Part shown: one piece after another, positions 14,752 through 57,937 of the stretch
Layout: the number at the start of each line of letters is the position of its first letter
Position numbering within the stretch: position 1 is the first letter of the stretch
From: Bemisia tabaci
Lineage: Eukaryota; Arthropoda; Insecta; Hemiptera; Aleyrodidae
NCBI RefSeq assembly: GCF_918797505.1
Contig: NC_092793.1
Location: forward strand, 1 to 64,000
Reading direction: 5' to 3'
Length of the DNA stretch: 64,000 nucleotides
Position numbers and translations under genes: made by a program
Notes under the pieces: generated by a model
What the model was told of the DNA's origin: nothing
The model's input: only the letters and a program-made list of their open reading frames with translations
Databases searched by the model: none

Positions 14752-15251
14752 NNNNNNNNNNNNNNNNNNNNNNNNNNNNNNNNNNNNNNNNNNNNNNNNN
14801 NNNNNNNNNNNNNNNNNNNNNNNNNNNNNNNNNNNNNNNNNNNNNNNNNNNNNNNNNNNNNNNNNNNNNNNNNNNNNNNNNNNNNNNNNNNNNNNNNNNN
14901 NNNNNNNNNNNNNNNNNNNNNNNNNNNNNNNNNNNNNNNNNNNNNNNNNNNNNNNNNNNNNNNNNNNNNNNNNNNNNNNNNNNNNNNNNNNNNNNNNNNN
15001 NNNNNNNNNNNNNNNNNNNNNNNNNNNNNNNNNNNNNNNNNNNNNNNNNNNNNNNNNNNNNNNNNNNNNNNNNNNNNNNNNNNNNNNNNNNNNNNNNNNN
15101 NNNNNNNNNNNNNNNNNNNNNNNNNNNNNNNNNNNNNNNNNNNNNNNNNNNNNNNNNNNNNNNNNNNNNNNNNNNNNNNNNNNNNNNNNNNNNNNNNNNN
15201 NNNNNNNNNNNNNNNNNNNNNNNNNNNNNNNNNNNNNNNNNNNNNNNNNNN
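14752..15251. other. Scaffold gap (500 N) at the centre of the inverted duplication
   Basis: Exactly 500 N, a conventional unknown-length gap. Both edges are the same satellite-like sequence in opposite orientation, so an unresolved tandem array probably fills or caused the gap. Confidence 0.98.
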
Positions 15252-40567: not shown

Positions 40568-41085
40568 TTTACATGGAGTGTTTATAAAAGTCGTATTTAA
40601 TTGTTAGGCGCGATAACTGTCAGGAATACCTATAACTATATTTACAAGAATCCCAGGTAGCAGTGCTCGCGATAAATTGCGATTTTATCAACGTCGATTT
40701 ATTGCAATATTATCGGGAGAAAACTTGCGATAAATTGAGATAAAAGTTCGATTTTATCGAACGCGATATTATAGAGATAAAATTTCAGTATCTCATCAAC
40801 GCCCACTAACGCATGAATGATGCTTATGGAAGATGTTTCTATGCCGCCGCCCCCCCCCCCCCAATTGAGATGAAAATGTGTCAACTTCTAAAATCGCCTC
40901 TGCATGGTCATAAGGGAAAGGGTATGAGGTAGTTTTGGGAGTGTGGAGAGGAGAAGTGGGGTAAAACGGAGTTTGTTTTGAGGGGTTAAAATGCAATTAG
41001 CGGAGGTGTAAGAACGATTCGATACGGGGTTGGGCGTGGGGTTGGGATGGTGGTAGGTACGCCCACACCGAGAAGATATTCTCGG

Positions 41086-41400
41086 CGTTTTTACCACTGG
41101 TCTGTTGGTAACTTTACCATCTCACTTCTTTTACCAATCATTGGTAATGTTACCAAGACAGACTGGTAAGCTTACCTAAAAACCAGTATTTTAACTGGTT
41201 TATTCAGGTAAGAATACCACTTTTATTGGTAGGTAATCAATTCCCGGTAAGGTTACCATTTTATCTCGGTAATTCTACCACAGTCGATAAGAAATATTGG
41301 CGTTTTTACCAAGCTCCATCGGTAACTTTGCCATCTCACTATTATTGGTAATTTTACCGAGACAGAATGATAAGATTACCAATAGACCCTTATTTTACCA
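41086..41400. repeat. Block of GGTAA/TTACC words
   Basis: About 19 exact GGTAA or TTACC pentamers in about 315 bp, in both orientations and irregular spacing, most as TTGGTAA or TTTTACC. It begins after a CGAGAAGATATTCTCGG hairpin, which may mark the start of a separate nested element. Confidence 0.75.
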
Positions 41401-41555
41401 ACCGTATTTCAAGGTATGAAATAAAATACAGACGAGGGAAAATAAAAAAAAAGTCTAATGAAAACTCGGTATCAGTCTACGCAATGACAAAAGTTGTGAG
41501 GTTGCGAAGCGCCAATCCATTTAAGAAGCTTGAATTTGCACTCATTGGCCATATA

Positions 41556-41627
41556 GTGGCCATAGCCTAGTGGCAATGTGCTGGCCTACCACCGCTGCGA
41601 CTCGGGTTCGAATCCGCTTGGAGGCTC
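41556..41627 (+). other. tRNA-like module (A and B box) in the 40652 element
   Basis: TAGCCTAGTGG fits an RNA polymerase III A box and GGTTCGAATCC is a perfect B box about 40 bp downstream, the spacing of a tRNA gene. The cloverleaf is weak, so it is tRNA-derived and not a confident tRNA gene. Confidence 0.6.
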
Positions 41628-42719
41628 CGGGGATTTTACTCTCGTCTTCGTCAAAGGACCTGACGGCTGAACCGGACGGAAATCGGCTGAAGACGCGTGA
41701 ATCCGCCGCACAGGTCATATGGCTCGCGGCGAGAAACAGCGCGAACCCCATTTTTTTGGCGATTTTATCTCCGATAAAATCGTAAAAAAATCTCAATTTA
41801 ATTTCGAAATGTCGCGATTTTTCCGTTGAAAAATGGTACTTGGGAAGATCGGTAAATTTAACTGGGCTCATCAAAATCTTCTGGTGAAAACGTTCAAAGC
41901 AGCCAGAGATACATTTGTGAAAATAATTGCGACCTTATACAGCTCTAGAGCACACCTCATACCTATTTCTTACCTGCACATAAATCTGTTTGATATAAAT
42001 ACCTACTTCCAATTTTTAAATTAAGAAAATGAGAAAAAGGAGAAATTAAAAATAAATCCATAAGACCAACCAACTTATTTACTAGAATAATTTTTGCCCT
42101 TTTCAATACAACTCTAAGGCATTCTTTAGACTCCGACTTCTCCCGATTGAAGTATCGGACAGCGGTTAAAAATTTACATCGTGAGGACGCGGGTGCGTCG
42201 TGCTCCAGTTATGCCTGACGTTTTCCAAAGGTAATCTTAGAATTTAAATGTTTAAGTAATGACCTTTCAAGTGTGTGCCAGTACCTAAATTCTGCATCGT
42301 TTAGTGTTTTATTTGTGACTGTGCGTGGTGTTTGTGTCAAAATTTTGAGAAATTCTTTAAGACCCATCACTGCCAGTCCTCGGAAAGAATTCGAAGAATT
42401 TCTAGAATTCACTTTCCGCCTTGTAACAGAGTTGTCATGCTGAAAAAAAAATGACTTATCACCTCGTGTCACAAGAGCTAATTCGTTATTGAGACAGGGC
42501 ACGAACAACAATACGCTCAATAAATATCAGCCCAAATCTACCAACTCTGGCACTCCTAAAGGCGACAGAGGTCAAATCCGACTATCGACAGATAAGGCTG
42601 ATGCATCTCGAGACGGCAACAACAAACGGTGGCGGTCTCTCATATGCATGAACAAGCGTCCAACGCGCTATTGCCGCATCAACAAAAAAAAGCGGTATCA
42701 GGTGTCAGGATTGCGTCAT

Positions 42720-43596
42720 CCCACATAGCACAGAATATTGATATAATACTACAATAGTACTGACACGTCAGTAGTGTCAGTATTTATATAATGCTGATGT
42801 ATCCTGATTTAATATTATATCAAGATTATGCCAGTATTTATTAGTTACTGATTTGGAGCTGTCAAAATATTGTTACAGTATTGGCCGAAAAGGTTGATGT
42901 CATATGGAAATCAGGGTTATGACAAGGTCATCAGAACACTGCAGGACACCGACAATATGTATGCATTACTACCTTGACACTGACACGTCTGTACACTCAG
43001 CGCACTCTGTCAAGTAGATATGAAAGTTCAGACGATGACCGTCATTTTCATAGTACTACACATGTATTACATTTGAAACATGAATTACACAAGTATACAA
43101 GTATTGAATATTATAAACCACTTACTTGATGTCCTGCGACGTTTAGTAGCGTAAAATACCCGGACGCCCTCGAGTGGATTTGAACCCGAACCGCGGAATT
43201 CCTAGCCCAGTACTCTGCTATTGAGCCACGGGGAACTGATGGTATTTCGGGTTAAAATCACGCCTGTCAGGCTGTTACAGCATGCATAGCATCAGTGCGC
43301 GGCTCGACTTTCATCATAACTTTGATTAACACCGTGTTTTCTTAGGCTTCTTTTTCTTCCTATATTTTTCTTCATTTTTTCGTGTTAATTTCTTTTCGTG
43401 TTATTTTTTTTTTACCTCGTCAGCATTGACTCAATACTGTTGTTTGATATATTGAAGGTATTAGTGTTATATTCATGCTGACGCGGTATACCTTTTAACC
43501 GACAATCTTAATATCATACTGCATTAGTGTTGGTGATATCATGTCAACATCCAACAATATGTATCAGTATTGACATAAGATTCTGTGCTATGTGGG
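42720..43596. mobile_element. CCCACATAGCA-ended element inserted in LINE ORF1 region
   Basis: Ends CCCACATAGCACAGAAT and ATTCTGTGCTATGTGGG. A 2-bp AT flanks both sides (target duplication candidate). Subterminal sequence repeats words such as AGTATT, GTACTGACAC and AATATTGAT on both sides. A tRNA-like module lies on the minus strand (43174-43236) with the same flanking tail as in the 51810 and 56568 elements. No transposase frame. LINE sequence resumes directly after it. Confidence 0.8.
43174..43236 (-). other. tRNA-like module in the 42720 element
   Basis: Minus strand reads TGGCTCAATAGCAGAGTAC (A-box-like) and GGTTCAAATCC (B box), then a GGGCGTCCGGGTATTTTACG tail shared with the modules at 52591 and 56834. 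Not a canonical tRNA: the anticodon arm is disturbed. Confidence 0.6.
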
Positions 43597-44822
43597 ATCC
43601 ATTCTCTCCACCAAGAAGCGAGGCGCCGCTCCAAGAGGATCAACATCTCCTTCCCTATCAGAGTCATCTCCATTAAGCTCCACCAAGATATCCACTCGTA
43701 AGGCCAGATTGACCATGATCTCCAACCCCACATCCCTACCAATTTCACCTGTTGCGGTCAACAATGCTGTTCCTACTCAAACAGAGAGATGGATCTACTC
43801 CAACAGAGAGACTCTCTAATCGATGAAGTGGCAACGGTCAAAGAGTTTAATTGTAAATTGGTTAGAGATGTCGATAAACTCAAGGAGGAAATTAGAACAC
43901 TTAAGTTAAATCTAGAGCAAAAAACTAGCGAAACTGAAATACTCTTAAAACGTCTAAATAAGAATTCAACAATCACTAATTATCCTATAAAGCAAGCTGG
44001 AGAATGATGAGCCTCCTGCCATGCGGCGGGAAAGGGATCATTTGGCAAGAAGAAATGCCGCTTTAATAAATAGTATTAAAAGAATTAATAGTAAATATAA
44101 GTACAAACCCGTTAATTGTGATTTTAGCCTCAGAAATACTGTAATTTTCAAAAAATTTAGGAGTATAGATATAAATTGTAAGCAAGGTACTTCAGCCAAT
44201 GTAATGATCAAAAATCATGTTGATAAGGCTAACAAGAGAAAAAGTAACCCAAATCCACAACATTAGAAACATACAGAGGCTACTGTTGATTCAAAGATAA
44301 TAGCTGGCAGTCACGGTAGGGAGCTCTGTGTTAGAGTAAACAGGCTTAGGGGAAAAAACTCTACAGCAAGTATTTTCCCAGGAGCAAAATTCAAGGAAAT
44401 CAAAAATACAGATATAGCGAGGTATGAAAATTCGGTAGTCATTGCGGGCTCAAATGATGTAGCAAATGGTGAGGGCTAAACTTTTCTTCATGAAGTAAGC
44501 GTTCTTGTTAAGGAAGAACATAGGAAACGTAACCTAATAATAGCCACTCTGAACGTAACCTAATAATAGCCACTCTTACCTCTAACCTAACTCTTCCCCC
44601 AAGGTTTGATCTCAGTCCATGGGCAAGAGTTAATCAAGAAATTAGGACCCTTAATGAGGAGATAATAGAGCTTTGTGGTTATTACGACAATGTTTACATT
44701 TTAGATTTCCATAACTTATCAAGGCCAATGTTTACACGCCATGGGCAGCATCTAAATAACAGAGGAAAGGATAAGTTGGCTAGTATGATCAGTGATGTAA
44801 TTGATCTTTTAAATTTCAATTT
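43597..44822 (+). pseudogene. LINE ORF1: coiled coil plus SGNH-type esterase domain, broken
   Basis: Starts with a Ser/Thr/Pro-rich region (43592-43770), then a coiled coil reading MDLLQQRDSLIDEVATVKEF and KLKEEIRTLKLNLEQK (43789-44007), a basic segment (RRERDHLARRNAALINSIKR) and then esterase-like motifs: GSHGREL (usual GDSH-type block, with D replaced), VVIAGSNDV (GxND block), and RHGQHLNNRGKDKLA (catalytic His block). ORF1 esterase domains are known in CR1-group LINEs. In-frame stops near 44264 and 44477, plus a frame change between the parts and a duplicated ACGTAACCTAATAATAGCCA (about 44526-44573), inactivate it. Confidence 0.75.
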
Positions 44823-44828
44823 AAACTA

Positions 44829-47053
44829 ATGCAAATTGACGTGGCCAAAACAAGCTTGCCTAGAAATGAGAAAGCCACTCCACTCGATGAACTAGCGAGT
44901 GCAGGCGGAGTGACAGGTAGTGCAATGATAGATAAGACAAGACCTAGTAGTTTAGCGAAATTTGACTTCACACTGTTTGTTCAAAATGTACGGAGTATGA
45001 ATGACCCATTAAAATGTTCCATGATTGAGGACATAATTAATGAAGAAAAGCATAAAATAATTTGTATAACTGAGCATTGGCTTAAGGATGAAATCTTAGA
45101 ATGCAATCTACTACAAAATTTTAAATTAGCATCCTGTTACTGTAGGAAACAATTTAAAGGTGGTGGAACTGCAATATTTGTGCGTAACAGCATTTCCACA
45201 GAGGAGTGTAAATTTATTTCAGAGATTAGTATAGACAAACATTTTGAAGTTTCAGCGACAAATTTAAAAGGCAGCACAACTGACTTAATTCTTATGTGTA
45301 TATAAAGGTCACCGAGTGGGGACTTTAATGTATTCCTAGAAAAGTTAGAAGAGATATTTAGGAAGCTAGATGTCCAACAAAAGTATATAATCGTAGGTGA
45401 TTTCAATGTGGATGTATCAGAAGAATCTAAACAAAAAAAAGACCTCCTCAATGTTTTTAAAACAGTCAATATGAGGCCAACAATTTTTGAGCCAACAAGG
45501 ATTACGGCCACATGCGCCACAACCATTGACAATATGTTTACAAAGGACTACGTGCAAAACGGGCCATTTGGGGCTCGGGGAGGATACCTTTGAGACTTGC
45601 CCTTTTCATTCACCTAACAAAGCCCCATCTTTCCTCAAAGTTTCAAGCCCCCCAAAAATTTTCTGGGAGACGCGGCGGGGGGTCAAAGTTAAAAACCGGC
45701 AAAATTTTCGCGAATTTATTACTCGAAAACCAAGAAGTTTTGGAAAACGCGGTTTAAACGAGCGCATTCAGCGTGACGAGAGCTTTCAGAAAATGTATGA
45801 CATCATAGGGTTTTTTCAACTTCAGCTCGAGTTATCGCCTCCGAAGCGCCGGAACACTCAAAAAAGACCCCTTATTTTTTCACGTTTGGGCCGATTTAAA
45901 AAAAAGCCATTTTTTTATCTTGATGAAAAACTGAAATGTTGTTCCTGACTCTCTGTAGCCCCTCTAGCTCTTTACCGCATGCTGGGGAAATGTTTTGGTC
46001 GCGAGTTATAAGAGCGGAATGGAGCGAAGGTCGGGAAAATCGGCTATTTTAAACTGCGCGCGCGGCGTTGATCGGAGGGAAAACGTCCCCTCCCACTCAG
46101 GTCGGCGAATCACACTCCTCTGCCGACCTCGCATTGTTGCCACATGTCTCCTGATCCGTCGCCGCGCGCAGTTTAAAGTAGCCGATTTTCCCGACCTTCG
46201 CTCCTTTCCGCTCCTATAACTCGCAACCAAAACATTTCCCCAGCATGCGGTAAAGAGCTAGAGGGGCTACAGAGAGTCAGGAACAACATTTCAGTTTTTC
46301 ATCAAAATAAAAAAATGGCTTTTTTTTAAATCGGCCCAAACGTGAAAAAATAAGGGGTCTTTTTTGAGTGTTCCGGCGCTTCGGAGGCGATAACTCGAGC
46401 TGAAGTTGACAAAACCCTATGATGTTATACATTTTCTGAAAGCTCTCGTCACGCTGAATACGCTCGTTTAAACCGCGTTTTCCAAAACTTCTTGGTTTTC
46501 GAGTAATAAATTCGCGAAAATTTTGCCGGTTTTTAACTTTGACCCCCCGCCGCATCTCCCCAAAATTTTTGGGGGGCTTGAAACTTTGAGGAAAGATGGG
46601 GCTTTGTTAGGTGAATGAATAGGGCAAGTCTCAAAGGTATCCTCCCCGAGCCCCAAATGGCCCGTTTTGCGCGTAGTCCTTTAGATATGAATGAATTTTT
46701 GACAGGCGTAGTTGAATGTGGGATATCTGATCACTCAGGTATCGAGATCAAGTTGAGAGGAGCAGATTATCACATTGAGCCTAAAACCAAATGTACCATT
46801 AAAGATTCATCCACATTCGGAGTTAGAATTTATGATTACACAATAAGCACATTAAAAGTTGAGTTAATGAATAATTTTTGTATGGAAAAGAATGACCTAA
46901 ATTTTGATTTGTTTCATACTAAGATTATCCATAAGCATGGTTTATATTTTCCACCCAAACCTTTGAAACATTTCACGAGTAAAGTAGTCAGAAGTGAAGA
47001 AATAAAAGCAGCCAAAGCTGCTGTGAATAAATTAACGAAAACTTTACATTATA
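44829..47053 (+). pseudogene. LINE ORF2, endonuclease domain (interrupted)
   Basis: Apurinic-type endonuclease motifs in order: FVQNVRSMNDP, CITEHWL, GGGTAIFVR, RSPSGDF, YIIVGDFNVDV, TRITATCATTIDNMF, then after the inserted 45542-46682 element, NEFLTGVVECGISDHSGIEI. The endonuclease would nick target DNA to prime reverse transcription. A TAA at 45303-45305 sits where the conserved tyrosine of the YRSP motif is expected. The part after the second insertion contains the linker to the RT. Confidence 0.88.
45542..46682. mobile_element. 1.14-kb palindromic element inserted in the LINE endonuclease domain
   Basis: Inverted ends AAAGGACTACGTGCAAAACG and CGTTTTGCGCGTAGTCCTTT; then GGGCCATTTGGGG and its complement. 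The arms (to about 46066, from about 46157) are nearly identical and meet in a 90-bp loop. Two short mirrored frames, reading NRQNFREFITRKPRSFGKRG on either strand, are by-products of the palindrome. Interrupts IDNMFT from NEFLTG of the host LINE. Target duplication unclear (ATATG occurs close to both ends). Confidence 0.85.
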
Positions 47054-48258
47054 CAGGGTGAGCGAAAAGTCCCCGACCCCCCCTCTAACTTTTGAACGAA
47101 TTAAGCTAGGGAAATGAAACTTTGGGGATGTTCCTATCTCAAAGGGGACCATCTTTTGGGGGGGTCAAAATTTTGGTCCCCCCTCAGGGGGGGCGCGGGG
47201 GGCCCCCAACTTTTTTTTTTCAAATGGCAACCCCTATCTTGTGATACCTCATTCGAAAGAGCATAAAAAACTAAGAATTTTGGCGCAAACCGCAGATCAA
47301 TATCTTAATTTTTGACTGAGTTATGATAGGTCAAAGGTGAAATTTGACCTATTTTCAAAAAATCATAACTCCGGTTCAAATTATCGCAAAGAAAAAAATA
47401 AAACGGGAAAATTTACCAAATTGTGTCCGCTTTTAAGTAAAAATTGCAAAAATCACTTCGATTTAATTGTAAGGGGGGGCTCGGACCCCCAAATACGTCA
47501 ATTCAAAGGTCATTCAATTTTCCCGCGAAATAAGCCAATTTCCCCTGGATTTGCCTCCACATTATCTCAGTAAGGTCAAAATCAGTTCAACATTACGTTG
47601 GCAAGTCCCCAAATTTCGGGAAAAGTTAAAAAAAAAACAAAATTTAAGGTAACTAAATTTGACCGTTTAAATATCATTTTTTTTAACTTTTCCCGAAATT
47701 TGGGGACTTGCCAACGTAATGTTGAACTGATTTTGACCTTACTGAGATAATGTGGAGGCAAATCCAGGGGAAATTGGCTTATTTCGCGGGAAAATTGAAT
47801 GACCTTTGAATTGACGTATTTGGGGGTCCGAGCCCCCCCTTACAATTAAATCGAAGTGATTTTTGCAATTTTTACTTAAAAGCGGACACAATTTGGTAAA
47901 TTTTCCCGTTTTATTTTTTTCTTTGCGATAATTTGAACCGGAGTTATGATTTTTTGAAAATAGGTCAAATTTCACCTTTGACCTATCATAACTCAGTCAA
48001 AAATTAAGATATTGATCTGCGGTTTGCGCCAAAATTCTTAGTTTTTTATGCTCTTTCGAATGAGGTATCACAAGATAGGGGTTGCCATTTGAAAAAAAAA
48101 AGTTGGGGGCCCCCCGCGCCCCCCCTGAGGGGGGACCAAAATTTTGACCCCCCCAAAAGATGGTCCCCTTTGAGATAGGAACATCCCCAAAGTTTCATTT
48201 CCTTAGCTCAATTCGTTCAAAAGTTAGAGGGGGGGTCGGGGACTTTTCGCTCACCCTG
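47054..48258. mobile_element. 1.2-kb palindromic CAGGGTG element inserted in LINE ORF2
   Basis: Ends CAGGGTGAGCGAAAAGTCCC and the exact complement, flanked by TA on both sides, the duplication typical of Tc1/mariner-type insertion. Arms 47054-47645 and 47675-48258 are almost identical around a loop of about 30 bp. Mirrored frames reading MKFDLFSKNHNSGSNYRKEK come from each arm. No transposase. Related to the truncated element at 35782. Confidence 0.9.
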
Positions 48259-48264
48259 TATGAG

Positions 48265-50200
48265 AGTAAATAATAGAGCAGTTGATCAAAATGTATATAT
48301 TGAGTGCAGGAGAAAGTTAAGAAGGTCAGTAGCACATTATAAAGCAGCGTTACTTGATAAGGAAAAAGTAGATATAATGAAATAACTCCAGAATTCTGAT
48401 AATATATCAAAAACATCCTGGGAAATAATCAATTCTGTTAGAAAAACCAAACCAGCTACTTTGCAGTCATTAAAAATTAATGGAAGTGAAACTGATAATG
48501 GTCTGGAAATGGGTAATGCAACCAATGACTACTTTAAGTACTTTACTGAACATATGGAGCACACGGTGAATCTTAATTTACAAATCAATAAATTAAACTA
48601 TCTACAGAAAGTCAATTCTGTGTTTGAATTTAATTATGTTTATGAATACGAAGTGGAAATGGCAATAAAAAGACTAAAAAATAAAAAATGTGAAAGTGAT
48701 GATGGGCTAAGTAATTATATTGCAAAAAAAATTTCTCAAGAGCTTATTATACCACTGGCATATTTTTATAATGAAATGATATTAAGTAGAATTTTCCCAG
48801 AAAGTCTTAAATATATTAAAGTTGTACCTTTACCAAAAGATAAAGATAAACCTACATTGATAAGTAATTATAGGCCACTGTCCATTGTGTCACCTCTATC
48901 CAAGATATTTGAAAATTTAATGAGCAAACAAATTAAGAAATACCTGCACGAAAACAAACTACTATACGAACATCAATATGGATTCACTCACGGTAAGAAC
49001 ACCGATATGGCAGTAAGATATTGTTATGAATCGTTATTGTTAAATAAGAAAAATGTATCTGTCATTATCGCCATTGACCTGCGTAAAGCGTTTGATACAG
49101 TAAGGTTTGATGTTATTGAAGTAAAATTAAAGAGGATAGATTTCACTGAATGTGCCATTGAATTACGTATGAGTTATTTGACAGGGGGAACTCAGTATGT
49201 AGCGGTCAAAAAGAAAGGAAGGATTTATAAATCAATCCTTAAACTCATCAAGAGTGGGGTTCCTCAGGGCTCGATTTTAGGGCCCCTTACTCTTTTTAAT
49301 TTTCATCAACGATGTAGCGCAATTTTTGAACATAAAAATTAAAAACTCTGTGTTTACATCGATTTTTAAATTAATTTCATTTGCTGATGATGTGCTGTTA
49401 CTCATTGCTAACAAAATAAGTTCTGTATTGGAAATTGATGCATACCTACTCGTCAACCTTTTCCACCAATGGTGTGATCTTAATGACATGGCTATGAATG
49501 AAATAAAAACCAAATTTATCCTAGTCACTAATAAAATTGACGTAACGATCGACATATTTATTGGTGGAACAAGGATCGAGGAGTCAGAAGTACTTAAATA
49601 TCTGGGTGTTTGGATAGATAATGACCTGCGTTTCAGTGTACACGTTGAAAACTGCATAAGCAAAATTAGTAAAGGGATCTTTGTGCTAAGATAGTTTAAA
49701 AAATTTTGCCAACACAGCTTACTTATGCAAATTTATCATTCATTTATAGTAGGAAATATGAATTATTATTGTTTATCTACATGGTCATTTTGCTCAGTTA
49801 AACTAGTTGATAGAATTTTCAAATTGCAAAAGAAAGCAATACGAATTATTTTCGGTATGAAGAATGAAGATTCATGCCATGAGTTGTTTAAAAAACATAA
49901 ATTACTAACATTTCCAGCAATGATAATTTTAAAGAGAGCAACATACATACAAGAAAACTCCAAACAAATTACAAAATTATCAGATCAGCACAATTTTAAC
50001 ACAAGAAATAAAAATAAGTTCATAACACCAAGAGGAAAACGAGTATGTAAAGCAATGTTTACTGTGTTACAATGCACTTCCTTTAAAGGATTTAAAAATT
50101 GATGATAACACAGAATTGCAAAAATTCTCAAAATTGATCACTGAATTCCTAGTGGAGAAAGAATTCTACGCAGTTAGAGAACTGGTGTAGACGTTTATTC
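48265..50200 (+). pseudogene. LINE ORF2, reverse transcriptase domain (frameshifted)
   Basis: Continues after the 47054-48258 insertion. RT blocks: NYRPLSIVSPLSKIFENLM, EHQYGFTHGKNTDMAVRYCY, IAIDLRKAFDTV (first catalytic Asp), SGVPQGSILGPL, FADDVLLLI (catalytic DD), then EVLKYLGVWIDNDL and the C-terminal region ending near 50200. A frame change at about 49290 separates the GPL block from the FADD block. A stop at 49692 interrupts the C-terminal part, and an earlier stop lies near 48380. Confidence 0.9.
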
Positions 50201-50299
50201 AATCTAATTCACTTGAAGAATTGTCTAATTTAACTATTATGCATTTTTCTAATTTTGAATGTTAGTATTAAGTTTAATCTAAGTTGACCCGTTTGTTTG

Positions 50300-51196
50300 C
50301 CTTTTTGCGCATTTTTAACGAAAAAAGTGATTTCTAGTGGTTTCTAGTGGTTCTAATTTGGCAACCTGTTTTTTTTAACCATATGAACGCACCTTTACTT
50401 TAAAGAGACGAAATTATAATAGTAGGTATTCTCTTCTGTGAGGGGCTTAATGGTGGTCTATTCGGCGGGAAAAATGTATTCACTTTGCCTAGAAAGTTCC
50501 GCAACTTCAAGTTGGTATTCTGATGAATTTTCCATGTACGAGAAAAGGAGGAGTATCGTTACGGGCCTTCTCCGGCCCCACCTGGATTTTGCTGAATGTT
50601 TCATATTTTCAAAGGACTAGTCTTAGGTAGACTCTACGCCAAACATTTCACCGAATGGAGCCTCGTGCAAAGGTGCAGCAGCGCCTCGACCCCTAAATCC
50701 TGGCATCGAAAAATGGTTAATTTTTTCGACTTTCTCTACTGTTTCCACTTTTTCAGCGGGTGAACTACACGTATTTACTGTACTTACTTTCCATTTCTGG
50801 CCTTTGAAAAGGCCTCCAATGAATTCGAAGGGGCTTAACCTTCTATTGTTGCCACTTTTGACCCATTTTTTTTTTTTAAATTTTACACACGTAGAACGAT
50901 TAGAACGATATTGTGCCATTGATGAAGCTTTAGGAGGCCTTGAACCAAAGGGGTTTTAGTGGGGGACTAGTTATTCCGTTATTACTAATTATTATTTAGT
51001 GGACTAATGTGATAGTGTGACTAATTATTATTTAGTGGACGACCTCCCAAGAGATGGGCACAGAGCTACCTTTCGTCCCCGGAGAATTAACCCTCTCTCA
51101 TCGCCATCATATGTTATTTGTCATATTTATAATTTAGAGGCTAGACAAACAGGGTCACGGCCCTAGTCAGAAGGTAGAAGAAGAAGAAGACTAATT
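50300..51196. other. Region without a supported gene
   Basis: Contains a 98-codon minus-strand open frame (50623-50919, reading MAQYRSNRSTCVKFKKKKW and a KVETVEKVEK repeat) with no recognised family. A twice-repeated ACTAATTATTATTTAGTGGA (near 50984 and 51019) and a GAA triplet run near 51178 follow. Confidence 0.4.
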
Positions 51197-51421
51197 ATTG
51201 CGATTAAAGAATTTTATGATGGGGCTTTTTCTAGGGTTAAATCACATGGGAAATTATCGTTGGGGTTTTTAATAGCTAAGGGACTTAAACAAGGCCTTGA
51301 TCAGAATGGGCCTTTTTTCAAAGGCTCTTTTAGAAATGAGCAGTTGCCAAATCAATTTGTTAATTTGTTAAAGTTCTCTCAGAATAAAGACGGGATAGTA
51401 GCAGAGCCCGTACAGAAATGA
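51197..51421 (+). pseudogene. LINE reverse transcriptase fragment (RTE-like)
   Basis: Frame reads KEFYDGAFSRVKSHGKLS, then KGLKQGLDQNGPFF. The KGLKQG block precedes the usual CPLSP in RTE/BovB-type and related RTs, but here the continuation is lost. It may belong to the same decayed element as 53030-54060, separated by about 1.6 kb that includes the 51810-52927 insertion. Confidence 0.6.
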
Positions 51422-51499
51422 AACTCTAAATTCATCATAGAGAACGAATGGAGAAAATAATAAGTATAATGACATGAAAAGGGTTCTGAAATGAGTAGA

Positions 51500-51625
51500 A
51501 GTGCAGTCTTAAACGGACGTGCGCGCCAAAAGAAGAGCAGCCTTAGACGAGCGTGCCTCTTGAGGCAGCCTTAGACGAGCGTGCCTCTTGAGGCAGCCTT
51601 AGACGGGCGTGCTAGCTGTGAGTGC
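51500..51625. repeat. 28-bp minisatellite
   Basis: GCAGCCTTAGACGAGCGTGC followed by CTCTTGAG repeats at 51537 and 51565, with a partial third at 51593 and a diverged copy at about 51503. Confidence 0.85.
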
Positions 51626-51809
51626 TTTAAACGAGAAATACCTACCTAGCAACTGAACTTAAAGTGGCTCCTGCCGCGGTATTTATAAGGGTGGTTACAT
51701 AATCATGAAAGGTGGCGTGATGTGATTACATAATCGGTGATAACTGGCCTGGCAGTTATGCAACTGGTTATGCAACCGCTTATCATGCCCCGACCTAATT
51801 ATGCAACCA

Positions 51810-52927
51810 CCCAAGTAGCATGGATTGCAATTTCATTGCAATGGATTGTGAGTTGATTGCAATTTTTGCTTGTTGCCTATACGTTCATTTGAAGGCGCTT
51901 AAAAAGTTGCAATTTTATTGCAATAAGTTTGCAAGAAATGTAGATTATGCTTGTTGCCTAACCTTCTTTTTCAAGGTACTATAAAGACTGCAATTTCGGT
52001 GCAATCATGTTGTAACAAATTCACGCCATGTGCCTGGCATCCAATTCTCTAGTTGTTTCAAAGTTTTTTCGACTTAAATGTCTCACCTAACCCATATAGC
52101 CCAACATATTTTGAAAATATTGTCACCTTTATCAAAATATTTTCATGGCAATATTGTAATTAAGATATTTTCAAAATATTTTTAAAACATTTTAAAGGAA
52201 TATTTTGAAAATGTTTACAAAAAATATTTTTAAAATAATTCAAAAATATTGCCTGTAAACATGCATGTTAAAAATATTCCTTAAGAAAGTTTTGAAAATA
52301 TTTTAAAAATATTTTTTGAAAATATTTTTAAGTTCTCAAGTTAGTATGTGGTGTAATTTACACCGGTGTAAATTTAGTGTGAGTACCTATTACGTGATAT
52401 CGAAAAAAAAATCAGACAAAAAAAATATGAAAAAAAATAAATAACACGAAAAAAAATAAATAATAGGCAAAAGAAAGAAGCCTGAGAAAAACGGCGTTAA
52501 TCAAATCTATGATGAATGTTGAGCCACGCACTGACGCAATGCATGCGATAACAGCCTTAACAGGCGTGATTTCAACCCAGCTCATCATCAGCTCCCTGTA
52601 GCTCAGTGGAAGAGTGCTCCGCTATGACATTCGCGGGTCGGGTTCAAGCCCACTCAAGGGCGTCCGGTATTTTATGCTGCTAAACGTCGTAGGACATTAG
52701 GTAAGCATGGGTTCGAATTATTATAATTTCCCCGGAAAATTTAGGGGTTGAAATTTAAAGGTCGTCAATATTTAAATTTCTTTGCAAAAAAAAAAATTGC
52801 AACTTTTTCACAATGAGGGGGTCCGATGTTGTAAAATAATTGCAATTTTCTTGCAAGAAAGTTGAAATCATCTGGAAATTTTATTTCATTTAAATTGCAA
52901 TTTTTTCGTTGCAAAATGCTACTTGGG
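51810..52927. mobile_element. CCCAAGTAGCA-ended element with TTGCAAT words and tRNA-like module (copy 1)
   Basis: Ends CCCAAGTAGCATGG and ATGCTACTTGGG, flanked by CA on both sides. Three zones: TTGCAAT words (51823-52010 and again 52790-52915), AAATATTTT words (52096-52335), then a TTTACACCGGTGTAAA palindrome at about 52357 and a tRNA-like module (52591-52662). No transposase frame. Present in reverse orientation at 56568-57688 with more than 95 percent identity by eye. Confidence 0.85.
52591..52662 (+). other. tRNA-like module in the 51810 element
   Basis: TAGCTCAGTGG (perfect A box, 52599-52609) and GGTTCAAGCCC (B box, 52641-52651). The outer CTCCCT/AGGG pairing suggests an acceptor stem. 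The tail CGTCCGGTATTTTATGCTGC follows. Probably tRNA-derived; function as a Pol III promoter is inferred. Confidence 0.65.
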
Positions 52928-53029
52928 CATTAAGTGAAAAAATAAAATCTTTAAATCCTTGGCGTGTAGAATGCCAGAAAACAAATAAACTAGAAATTTA
53001 AAGAAAATACGAATCTCTTAATTTGCATG

Positions 53030-54060
53030 CCTAGCTTAGGCGAAATAAACACAAAATTGACTCTTGTCCCATTCAAAGGGGGTATTGTTTGTCGCCAACC
53101 TTTTGAAGTGCACCTTGAAGAGGTTTTAAGGGAATGGAAAAGATGCTGTTCAAGAATGGGCGTCCCACTTCGGGAAGATGGCATCCTTTATAGGTACTCT
53201 GTGCTTTGCCGATGATCAGGTGGTAATAGCTCAGGACGAAGAAGATGCGAATTACATGAAGCGCAAGTTAGTGGAAGTATACCGTAAGTGGGGGACAGAA
53301 GTCAATGTGGTAAAGACGGTGAAGTTTGTTATCGGTGGTGATCAGCAAAGCATTGAACTGGAGGATGGTCGGAGAATTCAGGACTGTGAAGAGTATAAAT
53401 ATCTAGGAGTATGGTTAACTAAGGAGGAAAATTCGGATCGAGCTATTAGGTAAAGATCGAAATGTGCAAGGCAGGAACAGTATCGCGATGCTAAATGGGG
53501 TTCCCTGGGACCAGAATATCTCTAAGGAGACTAAAAGAAAAATTTACAACGTCATCGTGAAGAGTATCGTAACTTACGGGATTGACGTCTGGCAACTGAA
53601 GAAAAGGACGCAACTGAAGAAAAGGACGCAACTGAAGAAAAGGACTGAAGATATGCTGAGGGCAACTGAGATGGACTTTTGGCGGAGGTCTTCTGGCATC
53701 TCAAGAAGGGAGCGTGTCCGCAATGTAAAAGTGTGCGAGATAATTGGTGTGGAGAATGACATCGTGAACATATCAGGTCCAAGCAGTTGATCTGGTATGG
53801 ACATGTGCGAAGGATGGCTAACGATCGGTCGCCCAAGGAGGTTTCCGATTGGGTTCCTCCCGAAAGGCGACGGCGTTGGCGTCCTGTGAAAGGTTGGCGA
53901 CACAGGGTGGAGGAGGAGATCAGAAGGTGCCAATTGCCTGTTGGTCTCTGGGAGGATGGGGGGTAATGGCGATTGGGCGTCGCAGAGCGCGAGGCTGCGC
54001 TGTAAAGGCGGCTAAATGTATGTATATTAACGACAATGAAGATGTACGGGCTGTGTTTGG
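53030..54060 (+). pseudogene. RTE/BovB-like LINE reverse transcriptase C-terminal fragment
   Basis: Frames read EVHLEEVLREWKRCCSRMG, LCFADDQVVIAQDEEDANYM (catalytic DD), EEYKYLGVWLTKEENSD, KIYNVIVKSIVTYGIDVW, then MDFWRRSSGISRRERVRN. Later, QLIWYGHVRRMANDRSPKE and PPERRRRWRPVKGW match the tail of insect endonuclease-reverse transcriptases. Several frame changes make it dead. LKKRTQ is repeated three times (53597-53645, a tandem of CAACTGAAGAAAAGGACG), not seen in the usual family. Confidence 0.82.
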
Positions 54061-54079
54061 GCCCATCCAGAGTTGCTAA

Positions 54080-54730
54080 AAGAAATTTCTTTTTTCTCCA
54101 TGAAATTTCTTTCGACCGACAAAATGTCAAAAATGCTTGTTTTTTCTAACAGAATTTGTTTTTATTTTTAAAGAGAATAATATTCGTCAATTAGACCAAG
54201 TGGAGCGCTGTCTCTTCCAGTGCGGTCGCTTAGCTCAAAAATGCACGATGATACGCGGTTTCCGGCTACCAACGTGATCTTGGTCTTTAAATGACCGTTA
54301 GACCCTCCCGATTCAGAAACCACCGGGAGCCACCCGCGCTCCCCCGTCCCCCCCCCCTTTTGGCCGCCATCTTGGAAAATGGCGGCCAAAATCGGGTTTT
54401 TTCGAAATATCTCGAGAACGGCGGCAGATATCAAATAATTTTCTTAGTTAAAAAAGATTCAGCGTGAAAAAGCGGTATGAATGAAGTACTCATACGTGAA
54501 AAATATGAGAGAAGGGAGGGGGGGAGGGGGAGGCCCGCCGCGCCGCTGCGCGCTCCTCTGCTCCTCAGCTGTCTTGCGAAAAACTCGCTGTTTCGGCAGG
54601 CGCGCGTCATCACCCGAGGCGTTGCGCCCTCTGGTAATCAAGCAATTAATAACTGGACACTTGAATCTTCCCGCCTTTTTACTTGCTGTGCTCTGGATAG
54701 GTTGGTAGATATAGACAAATTTGACAGAAA
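54080..54730. repeat. Repeat segment with GGCGGCCA hairpin; 54573-54723 inverted at 59004-59154
   Basis: TTTTGGCCGCCATCTTGGAA and AAATGGCGGCCAAAA form a hairpin near 54356-54395. The last 151 bp (CTTGCGAAAAACTCGCTG to GTAGATATAGACAAATTTG) reappear in reverse complement at 59004-59154, just before the third gap. The two may be ends of one larger element of about 4.6 kb or separate copies. Confidence 0.6.
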
Positions 54731-54837
54731 ATAGGTAAGTTTAATTCAGAAATAAACTTTTGCTAAACAATTTGAATACAAGTGGGTGGAAAATAAGTGC
54801 CTTATCAATCTATTTCTTTTTAAAGGAACCCTAATTT

Positions 54838-56170
54838 GAAATTTGGTTCATTTTAGAGTTTAGCGGTATCATTGGATGTAGGGTTCTAAGTGGCTCAGAT
54901 TCAAATGACTTGGAAACTTGTGTAAACCCGTGCACCGCTAACTTAATTGATGGAGCTGTGTCTGTGCATATCTTAAATAAATCAAATGCTAAAACATTCT
55001 CCGAATTCTCCATAAAAGTTTTTCAGTCAGCAATTAAGCGCAAACTGCAGAGCTTTGACAGGGTTGATATTGTTTTCGACAGATATCCGCCTTTTATAGC
55101 TTAAAATCAGACACAAGAGAGAAAAGAGGGTCCGGAAGAGAAATTCTCGTAAAAGGTTCGACGCCTCTACCGAAAAATTTTGGCCATTTCTTGAAAGTTG
55201 ATCGTAACAAGACTCAGTTATTTCAATTACTCGCACAAGACATCAAATCTATGGAGACAATGGGTAAGATCGTCATTTGCACTGATGACGTATATCGATC
55301 GTTTCAGCTGGAAATTTGGTTTCAAGCGCCGATATTTCACCGTGTCTCCGCGAGGAGGCAGATACTAGACTTTTCATTCATATGAGAATGCTGTTCTATC
55401 AGGTCATAAGTTTGTACTGCTCAGTACTGTGGATTCTGATGTCATCGTGATTGCAACTTCTATGTTCCAAACTTTGAAAGAATTCGGTTTGCAGGTCCTG
55501 TTCGTAGAATATGGAGTTGGTAAAAATAGGAGTTTAATCCAAATTTCTAAATTAACATCGAAAATCTCGCCGGATATGCGCAACGCACTGACATTCTTCC
55601 ATGCGTTTACAGGTTGTGACTCCGTATCGTATTTCTACGGCGAAGGCAAGACGAAGGCGTGGAATATCTGGAATAAATTGGAGAATAATTTAACTGGAAC
55701 ATTTTTGAAGCTTTCATCGTGTAACGAAATTTCTAATAATGATTTTGAAAAAATTCAGCTCTTCACTATTTTTATTATTTATGACTCGTCCAGCCAGGCA
55801 AAATCCGTCAATGAATGCAGGAGAGTCTTGTACACTCAAAAAAATCGATCGGTTGAGACATTCCTCCCGCTGAGAAAGCATTGCGCTAGCATTTGCGGAG
55901 AGCAATGCTCCAAACTCACATTTGGAAGCATTGCTTGGAGCTGAATCCAGTTGTTCCCGACGTGAAATCTTGGGGTTGGACAAGTAGAACTGAGACCACT
56001 GAGGGACTTGCCATCGTGCCACTGATGTGGACCACCCTATCAGAGGCTTCGAAAGAGTGCTACGAGCTAATATCTTGTGGATGTAAAACAATGTGTTAAA
56101 AAATTGCAAGTGCCAACGCTTTAATTTAAAGTGCACAGCACTTTGTTTATGTGGTGGGCAATGCTCATAA
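54838..56170 (+). pseudogene. Decayed TE-associated ORF with GCDS motif and Cys-rich tail
   Basis: Fragments read FSEFSIKVFQSAIKRKLQSF with DRVDIVFDRYP, VDSDVIVIATSMFQTL, then FFHAFTGCDSVSYFYGEGKT, FLPLRKHCASICGEQ, and after a frame change CKCQRFNLKCTALCLCGGQC. HAFTGCDSVSxFxGxGK and the terminal C-x-C rich block are hallmarks of a large uncharacterised, transposon-associated family common in invertebrates. I know of no established function; a nuclease-like fold with DSDV acids is inferred. Multiple stops (55102, 55383) mark it as a relic. Confidence 0.6.
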
Positions 56171-56567
56171 AGATTTGCATTTCCAACTTACGGCCCGAAG
56201 CACTCTAATTTTGAATCCATCTTTCAAACAACCGTACTAATATCGTACTAGTTTATTGCAAAACTTAGCTCATGAATACCAAAAGAATTTATCCTCTCAT
56301 GCCAAACATTTGGACTGCATTTTGCGATTTGGAACTATAAATTCTGGCTCTTCTTGAAAAACACGGATAAGCGTAGGGAAACTAATGGCACGTACGTTGG
56401 TTTTAAACCGGGCTAGAATTTATAGTTTCAAATTGCAAAATGTAGTCAATTTACTCTTCCGTCAAAAATGTATTTTATTAACATTTATTTGTATCTTATA
56501 CTTCCTTTTATTTTAGTTTTTTTTGTGAGACTGTTGCAATACACCCAACGGGTTATACACCCAACCC

Positions 56568-57688
56568 CCCAAGTAGCATTTTGCAACGAAAAAATTGCAA
56601 TTTAAATGAAATAAAATTTCCAGATGATTTCAACTTTCTTGCAAGAAAATTGCAATTATTTTACAACATCTGACCCCCTCATTGTAAAAAAGTTGCAATT
56701 TTTTTTTTTTGCAAAGAAATTTCAATATTGACGACCTTTAAATTTCAACCCCTAAATTTTCCGGGGAAATTATAATAATTCGAACCCATGCTTACCTAAT
56801 GTCCTACGACGTTTAGCAGCATAAAATACCGGACGCCCTTGAGTGGGCTTGAACCCGACCCGCGAATGTCATAGCGGAGCACTCTTCCACTGAGCTACAG
56901 GGAGCTGATGATGAGCTGGGTTGAAATCACGCCTGTTAAGGCTGTTATCGCATGCATTGCGTCAGTGCGTGGCTCAACATTCATCATAGATTTGATTAAC
57001 GCCGTTTTTCTCAGGCTTCTTTCTTTTGCCTATTATTTATTTTTTTTCGTGTTATTTATTTTTTTCATATTTTTTTTGTCTGATTTTTTTTTTCGATATC
57101 ACGTAATAGGTACTCACACTAAATTTACACCGGTGTAAATTACACCACATACTAACTTGAGAACTTAAAAATATTTTAAAAAAATATTTTTAAAATATTT
57201 TCAAAACTATCTTAAGGAATATTTTTAACATGCATGTTTACAGGCAATATTTTTGGATTATTTTAAAAATATTTTTCGTAAACATTTTCAAAATATTCCT
57301 TTAAAATGTTTTACAAATATTTTGAAAATATCTTAATTACAATATTGCCATGAAAATATTTTGATAAAGGTGACAATATTTTCAAAATATGTTGGGCTAT
57401 ATGGGTTAGGTGAGACATTTAAGTCGAAAAAACTTTAAAACAACTAGAGAATTGGATGCCAGGCACATGGCGTGAATTTGTTACAACATGATTGCACCGA
57501 AATTGCAGTCTTCATAGTGCCTTGAAAAAGAAGGTTAGGCAACAAGCATAATCTACATCTCTTGCAAACTTATTGCAATAAAATTGCAACTTTTTAAGCG
57601 CCTTCAAATGAACGTATATAGGCGACAAGCAAAAATTGCAATCAACTCACAATCCATTGCAATGAAATTGCAATCCATGCTACTTGGG
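56568..57688. mobile_element. CCCAAGTAGCA-ended element (copy 2, opposite orientation)
   Basis: Same ends and zones as 51810-52927 in reverse. It sits inside a palindromic target: ATACACCCAACC before it and CCGTTGGGTGTAT after it form a hairpin when the element and one CC are removed, so the insertion lies at the hairpin tip with a 2-bp CC duplication. Confidence 0.85.
56834..56905 (-). other. tRNA-like module in the 56568 element
   Basis: Minus strand identical in layout to 52591-52662: TAGCTCAGTGG A box and GGTTCAAGCCC B box, followed by the same CGTCCGGTATTTTATGCTGC tail. Confidence 0.65.
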
Positions 57689-57937
57689 CCGTTGGGTGTA
57701 TTTAGTTAATTTCGTTTATTTTTGTGATAACAAGACTATAATTATACAAATTTAATTTTTGTCACGCTGATTTATTTCTACTCGGAGGCACCCTGATGTT
57801 TCTACGGAGAAGCAGAATTACGTAGGTACTAACCTGTCAGGACTGACTCTAATTTTCTACCTGTTCGTGACTAATTTTGTATGTTCATTCATGACAGTTC
57901 ATACTTAAATATTTATTTCTTATTAATTCTTTACTAG

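Follow-up and report, generated by a model that had tools for sequence, protein, structure and literature searches.

Non-coding elements with CCC termini and an internal tRNA-like core in Bemisia tabaci are probably non-autonomous TRC-type CACTA transposons

Results

The first 64,000 nucleotides of contig NC_092793.1 of Bemisia tabaci (hereafter the window) contain four non-coding elements, E1 to E4, which carry nearly the same inverted 11-bp word at their ends and, in their interior, a transfer RNA (tRNA)-like block that we call the core. The elements, their cores and their inner word zones are located as follows.

40652-41844, plus strand: E1, 1193 bp, a copy of an old family; left end CCCAGGTAGCA, right end CCCAAGTACCA; end words of the GATAAA/CGCGAT type and an inner GGTAA/TTACC zone
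41058-41420, no strand assigned: inner word zone of E1 (TTACC/GGTAA); TGGTAA/TTACCA 12 times, a count reached by 0 of 200 shuffles
41358-41669, plus strand: core of E1; A box TAGCCTAGTGG, 31 bp, B box GGTTCGAATCC, then ATTTTA
42720-43596, minus strand (that of its core): E2, 877 bp; CCCACATAGCA at both ends; 2-bp duplication AT
43119-43423, minus strand: core of E2; A box TGGCTCAATAG, 31 bp, B box GGTTCAAATCC, then ATTTTA
51810-52927, plus strand: E3, 1118 bp; CCCAAGTAGCA at both ends; 2-bp duplication CA; TTGCAAT words
52091-52340, plus strand: inner AAATATTTT zone of E3; its first motif, CCCATATAGCCCA, is end-like
52408-52705, plus strand: core of E3; A box TAGCTCAGTGG, 31 bp, B box GGTTCAAGCCC, then ATTTTA
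56568-57688, minus strand: E4, 1121 bp, an inverted second copy of the E3 family; 2-bp duplication CC
56791-57087, minus strand: core of E4

An original prediction, made from the sequence of the window, had described four elements with common 11-bp ends and with words that differ from element to element. All four elements exist, but E3 and E4 are 98.4% identical in opposite orientation and hence form one family, which rules out four independent elements and leaves three families in four copies. The word CCCANNTAGCA occurs 8 times in the window, as compared with a mean of 0.24 and a maximum of 3 in 100 shuffles; element ends account for seven of these occurrences, the eighth (53489-53499) being without a partner, and the right end of E1, CCCAAGTACCA, differs from CCCANNTAGCA by one mismatch. 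All eight element ends start with CCC. The window copy of E1 is flanked by the dinucleotides AT and AA and thus lacks a matching duplication. As predicted, no frame that measures 90 codons or more from stop to stop lies wholly within any of the four elements, yet a 130-codon frame (41542-41934) extends across the right end of E1. The target of E4 is palindromic, ACACCCAAC-CC-GTTGGGTGT (56541-56567, 57689-57705), and adjoins a further ACACCCAAC; the region of E1 and E2 has an inverted duplicate, 99.1% identical over 4.2 kb, near C1:0.97 Mb (L029/L030, C1:966789-967981 with flanks).

The genome searched comprises 610 Mb in 151 contigs, of which C1 to C10 measure 43-92 Mb; the window is the start of C1, and L numbers denote genomic stretches fetched around matches. 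CCCANNTAGCA occurs exactly 3995 times on the forward and 3163 times on the reverse strand (7158 in all), against 820 + 850 = 1670 occurrences of the reversed control pattern. Among the first 100 listed places, which cover the first 7.4 Mb of C1, neighbours at most 3 kb apart form 21 pairs in +/- orientation, as compared with one -/+ and seven same-strand pairs, and the sizes of the +/- pairs cluster at 308-348, 877-883 and 1088-1121 bp. One pair of ends, at C1:1695852-1698308, spans 2457 bp. Four copies of CCCAGGTAGCA occur on one strand in the 1.6-kb stretch C1:7430041-7431617, which may be a tandemly repeated unit with an end inside it.

The three families differ in how well their copies are preserved. 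For E3, at least 41 full-length matches at 97-100% identity were found (702 first-look candidates, 40 scored), and for E2 at least 40 matches at 96-100%, of which 38 deviate from full length by no more than one base (325 candidates, 40 scored). The main matches of E1 are only 82-90% identical (40 scored of 2961 first-look candidates); besides E1 itself there is one 99% copy, which is located in a duplicated segment. Mean divergence from the consensus is 0.34% for E3 (23 copies) and 5.5% for the E1 core (24 copies). A perfect 2-bp target duplication flanks 20 of the 23 E3 copies examined (AT 6, CA 4, TA 3, AC 2 and GG, GT, CT, TC and TT one each) and 4 of 5 E2 copies. Empty sites were also observed: when the flanks of E3 copies were joined and searched for within the fetched sequence, 6 of 23 matched across the junction, and for 4 of 23 (L010, L013, L024 and L026) an unoccupied relative covers 225 bp or more of the 298 bp with 92-100% identity. 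These insertions are of the cut-and-paste type, young for E3, which has spread recently, and older for E1. The copies examined were mostly best hits, and therefore the ages given here and the box counts given below favour well-kept copies.

The termini resemble those of published transposons. The description of the animal TRC group lists termini with a CCC core, direct repeats of 2 bp and a transposase of the Transposase_21 family, and gives a 27-bp Tribolium terminus, CCCTAGTAGCACCGAATATTTGTAAAA (DeMarco 2006, PMC1636069). A Hydra element assigned to TRC is likewise reported with CCC and 2 bp (PMC4298943), and 2-bp duplications are given for other CACTA miniature inverted-repeat transposable elements (MITEs; PMC6004678). 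We compared each of the 1273 CCC sites in the window with the Tribolium sequence. At positions 4-11 of that terminus, the four ends of E3 and E4 are the best four sites (7 of 8 positions matched), both E1 ends rank 5 and both E2 ends rank 9; over 27 bp, the left end of E2 ranks first (20 of 27) and its right end sixth.

Repeated words in the subterminal zones are typical of CACTA transposons. The original prediction had assigned such words to the subterminal zones of every element, which was borne out in part when the top hexamer of each zone was compared with 200 dinucleotide shuffles. For the left and inner zones of both E1 and E3, no more than 1 of the 200 shuffles reached its count, but it did not exceed the shuffles in E2 (P 0.16 left, 0.10 right) or on the right side of E1 (0.47) and E3 (0.55). 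Relatives in L009 and L012 also show significant enrichment. The E1 copy in L010 contains 16 CGCGAT and 7 TGCAAT (both strands), as compared with 0 and 16 in E3, and the E3 word ATTGCAAT may be the E1 word ATCGCGAT after loss of both CpGs. The second word zone of the E3 family opens with an end-like motif (52091 in E3, 57405 in E4) that may be an older nested end; when the 1273 CCC sites are ranked over 27 bp of the Tribolium terminus, it shares second place with an unrelated site that is duplicated. Another end, CCCAGATAGCACAGGAATATTC, lies at L009:6114 and is accompanied by significantly enriched words of the AGAATATTCTGAG type; no right end was found nearby, and it probably belongs to another, truncated family.

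One tRNA-like module with A and B boxes had been predicted for each element, and this holds for all four, with the boxes at an offset of 42 bp. The module recurs across families as part of a homologous block of about 300 bp common to all three, which consists, in this order, of an A-rich start, a GAAAAC.CGGTGTTAATCAA-like stretch, the tRNA-like part and TCCGG..ATTTTA.GCT. The modules are therefore related to one another: the cores of E2 and E3 agree at 78-80%, and that of E1 agrees with both at 55-58%. The family consensus cores are 77.8% (E2/E3), 57.8% (E1/E2) and 54.5% (E1/E3) identical. A tail shared between modules, also part of the prediction, is found between E1 and E2 past the B box (z 6.0), but its z is only 2.0 between E1 and E3; the corresponding values for the part upstream are 4.1 and 2.2 (300 shuffles each). 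Homology of the E1 core thus rests mainly on E2.

Both boxes are exact at tRNA spacing in 23 of 24 E3, 6 of 6 E2 and 11 of 24 E1 cores (one of the E1 cores being a fragment). The A-to-B offset is 42 bp in 39 of the 40 cores with intact boxes and 46 bp in the remaining one, and a run of four T follows within 30 nt of the B box in 36 of the 40 (E3 23, E2 5, E1 8). A match of at least 200 model positions was needed for this box tally and of at least 250 for the comparison of consensus sequences, hence the different core counts of the two analyses. For comparison, a spacing of 30-40 bp between A and B box is given for type-2 promoters of RNA polymerase III (Pol III; PMC7279448).

Functional tRNA genes can be ruled out: ARAGORN found no tRNA gene, the Rfam tRNA model matched E2 only, at 13.8 bits against a gathering score of 29, and the cores fold no better than shuffles. 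Judged by its sequence, the core contains a putative tRNA-derived type-2 Pol III promoter with a decayed cloverleaf. Short interspersed nuclear elements (SINEs) derived from tRNA have their tRNA part at the 5' side, are read through to a 3' tail, show duplications of variable length and move by retroposition. The elements described here, taken as a whole, do not conform to this: their module lies in the interior, the A box being preceded by about 170-200 bp of shared sequence, a run of four T follows the B box, and the whole element has inverted ends and 2-bp duplications.

Families E1 and E3 are connected outside the core. E3 and the L010 copy of E1 agree in 32 of the first 36 bp at their right ends; the left ends are more weakly related (32 of 60), and the orientation of the core is the same. 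The original prediction regarded ends that vary independently of the modules as evidence against a common class, and ends and module did prove to be partly independent. In L012:420-784, a 365-bp relative possesses ends and words and shows a GA duplication, yet it lacks the core, which is therefore not needed to transpose. All five non-bait cores in fetched sequence, however, lie inside such elements (L011, L010, L026 and second copies in L016 and L019; the copy in L019 runs off the stretch, with one end visible). The E1 copy in L043 contains an extra partial core.

Seven matches to Transposase_21 were found in the genome, five of them above the family cut-off, with open frames of 691-978 amino acids, as compared with none in 14 control genomes. 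Two of these loci, C6:4535674 and C8:20299429, share a 3' flank that is 99.7% identical over 580 bp as far as fetched and contains a word array; since the similarity stops right after ...CATTTTTAGCAGGG, this Transposase_21 family seems to terminate in CCCTGCTAA and to possess subterminal words, that is, to have the architecture of E1-E4 with a different end word. We infer that open reading frame and terminus belong together, one end having been observed. In the window itself, 10 of the 84 listed frames were scanned, which yielded two reverse transcriptase matches above the cut-off and otherwise weak or no matches. None of the frames near orphan ends in L009, L012 and L017 looked transposase-like by eye; no family search was made there. 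There is also a second terminus of TRC-like type, CCCTGCTAAAAATGAGTGTAATG, accompanied by a word array of its own; it occurs at L058:727-1120, L059:182-575, L047:1-65 and L036:1333, and in L047 this type of end abuts an E1 copy.

The remainder of the window is rich in other repeats. Positions 1-32624 form one large inverted repeat around a run of N (14752-15251), with arms 1-4781/27840-32624 (99.2%), 5411-7967/25301-27846 (98.6%), 7968-12511/17155-21695 (99.7%) and others; located at the very start of the contig, it may either be a genuine palindrome or have arisen by fold-back during assembly. Two further repeats, 45542-46682 (about 1.15 kb, 93%) and 47051-48261 (about 1.2 kb, 98%), match their own reverse complement and lie between pieces of a reverse-transcriptase element with an RVT_1 frame at 48386-49342. 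A broken frame of about 290 codons (55068-55944) contains a AFTGCDSVSYFYGEGKTKAW-like motif; it gave no Pfam match in the two frames scanned, and proteins of this kind occur in insect repeats.

Discussion

Taken together, the CCC termini, the 2-bp duplications and the likeness to the Tribolium terminus identify E1-E4 as probable non-autonomous TRC-type CACTA transposons (CMC/EnSpm). With a probability of about 0.7, we propose that a Transposase_21 enzyme mobilises them in trans and that they carry an inherited tRNA-derived core as a passenger. Such an enzyme would recognise the 11-bp end starting with CCC, and probably also the subterminal words as binding sites, and transposition would leave the 2-bp target duplication. 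The original prediction of an undescribed element class is thus not upheld, as CCC start, 2-bp duplication and terminus all match the published animal TRC. In a wide sense the elements are also MITEs, being non-coding, with inverted ends and numerous copies of uniform length, although most MITEs are shorter than the 0.9-1.2 kb seen here.

The closest known systems are the 5.2-kb TRC of Tribolium castaneum and SmTRC1, which are described with CCC-start inverted ends and a 2-bp duplication; the Tribolium terminus CCCTAGTAGCA agrees with CCCAAGTAGCA of E3 at 10 of 11 positions. Both carry Transposase_21, whereas the window elements are non-coding and possess a tRNA-like core; the term tRNA does not occur in that text (PMC1636069). 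Spongebob/EnSpm-4N1_HM of Hydra and insects, placed in TRC/CACTA, has the CCC start (CCCAGCCAACATTGAC) and the 2-bp duplication, but its terminus differs past CCCA, and the account of it consulted here mentions no tRNA-like core (PMC4298943). The HaSE1-3 SINEs of Helicoverpa are reported with A and B boxes at tRNA spacing (PMC3272025); unlike in these, the module of the window elements is internal and followed by four T, and there are inverted ends and 2-bp duplications. The ATon elements of Aedes, also abundant, young and non-autonomous, are described as sharing an end word and lacking a known autonomous partner, but they show AT-specific insertion and have other termini (PMC3422177); tRNA has no occurrence in that text either. 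By title and abstract, the open-access literature yielded no CACTA element or MITE with a tRNA-like core. Any of five end words occurs in 54 papers, and none of the 20 listed deals with transposons by title and abstract, the match having come from the TRC descriptions (PMC1636069). The core pattern was absent from the viral contigs and genome contigs searched, and the E1/E3 end pattern from the viral contigs; five single matches of a Tribolium-like end pattern in viral contigs, all without a partner end, were taken as chance.

Several observations weigh against this assignment. Over 27 bp of the Tribolium terminus, five ends, E3's included, rank only 8, and the left end of E1 ranks 154 of 1273. 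An element that combines CCCANNTAGCA ends with a transposase was not found in the searches made, the transposase family with an observed end has a different terminus, CCCTGCTAA, and two other Transposase_21 3' flanks (L060 and L061) showed no CCCANNTAGCA end within 1.4 kb, the flank in L060 containing further exon-like sequence. In E1, the older family, only 5 of the 12 fetched copies whose two ends can be recognised show a duplication, to which the copies in L010 and L026, both with a 2-bp duplication, are additional; 8 of 20 fetched E1 copies have no pair of recognisable ends. Finally, E2 and E3 align solely in the core, which would also fit an exchange of cores.

With regard to its origin, the core is most likely, with moderate support, an old inherited passenger that is dispensable for transposition: a tRNA-derived sequence would have entered an ancestor once and then been inherited while the word arrays turned over. 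The main alternative, possible though rather doubtful, is that the core was captured or exchanged repeatedly, by SINE insertion into, or recombination between, different TRC families. The sharp drop of similarity between E2 and E3 at the core borders would be expected in that case, as would the core-less relative and the extra partial core in L043, and HaSE2, reported as a SINE/mariner chimera, provides a precedent (PMC3272025). On the other hand, E1 and E3 have both ends and the orientation of the core in common, the tRNA-like part lies away from the core edge behind the shared upstream sequence, the four T past the B box would stop a full-length SINE RNA, and all five non-bait cores reside within these elements.

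It is unlikely that the core is a working part instead of a passenger, namely a selected site for Pol III or its factor TFIIIC that provides, for example, open chromatin or a short RNA. That boxes, spacing and the run of four T persist across families makes a Pol III/TFIIIC role possible. In an alignment of the three families, 21 of 28 columns of boxes and terminator are identical, as compared with 118 of 258 elsewhere (P 0.003), though the terminator was joined to this test after the alignment had been seen. The nearly invariant 42-bp offset is a further point in favour of this view. Yet E1 copies keep the boxes no better than the rest of the core (mismatch 0.054 and 0.041 vs 0.053, from first consensus sets with some members misassigned, whereas the consensus identities and the divergence of the E1 core are from redone sets), fewer than half of the E1 cores have both boxes exact, no RNA structure is kept, and the core-less relative has moved. 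The more far-reaching view, of an animal CACTA lineage in which a Pol III/TFIIIC docking module was conserved as a working part while transposase-binding words were replaced, and in which the success of the elements would depend on Pol III factors of the host, we regard as improbable.

That E1-E4 represent a new DNA-transposon superfamily with a transposase of its own is very improbable: no transposase-bearing partner with these ends was found, and there are many families with fast-changing words, but terminus, 2-bp duplication and CCC start agree with published TRC elements and Transposase_21 genes occur in the genome.

In summary, thousands of end motifs in an insect genome gain a home in a known superfamily. 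The element type itself is already known, and what may be new is its cargo, the tRNA-like core. The presence of the same core in families that differ in age and words, together with a mobile relative that lacks it, offers a clean test of whether a Pol III promoter benefits DNA transposons. If the core does work, it would be a host-factor handle of a kind that we did not find for CACTA elements in the open-access literature.

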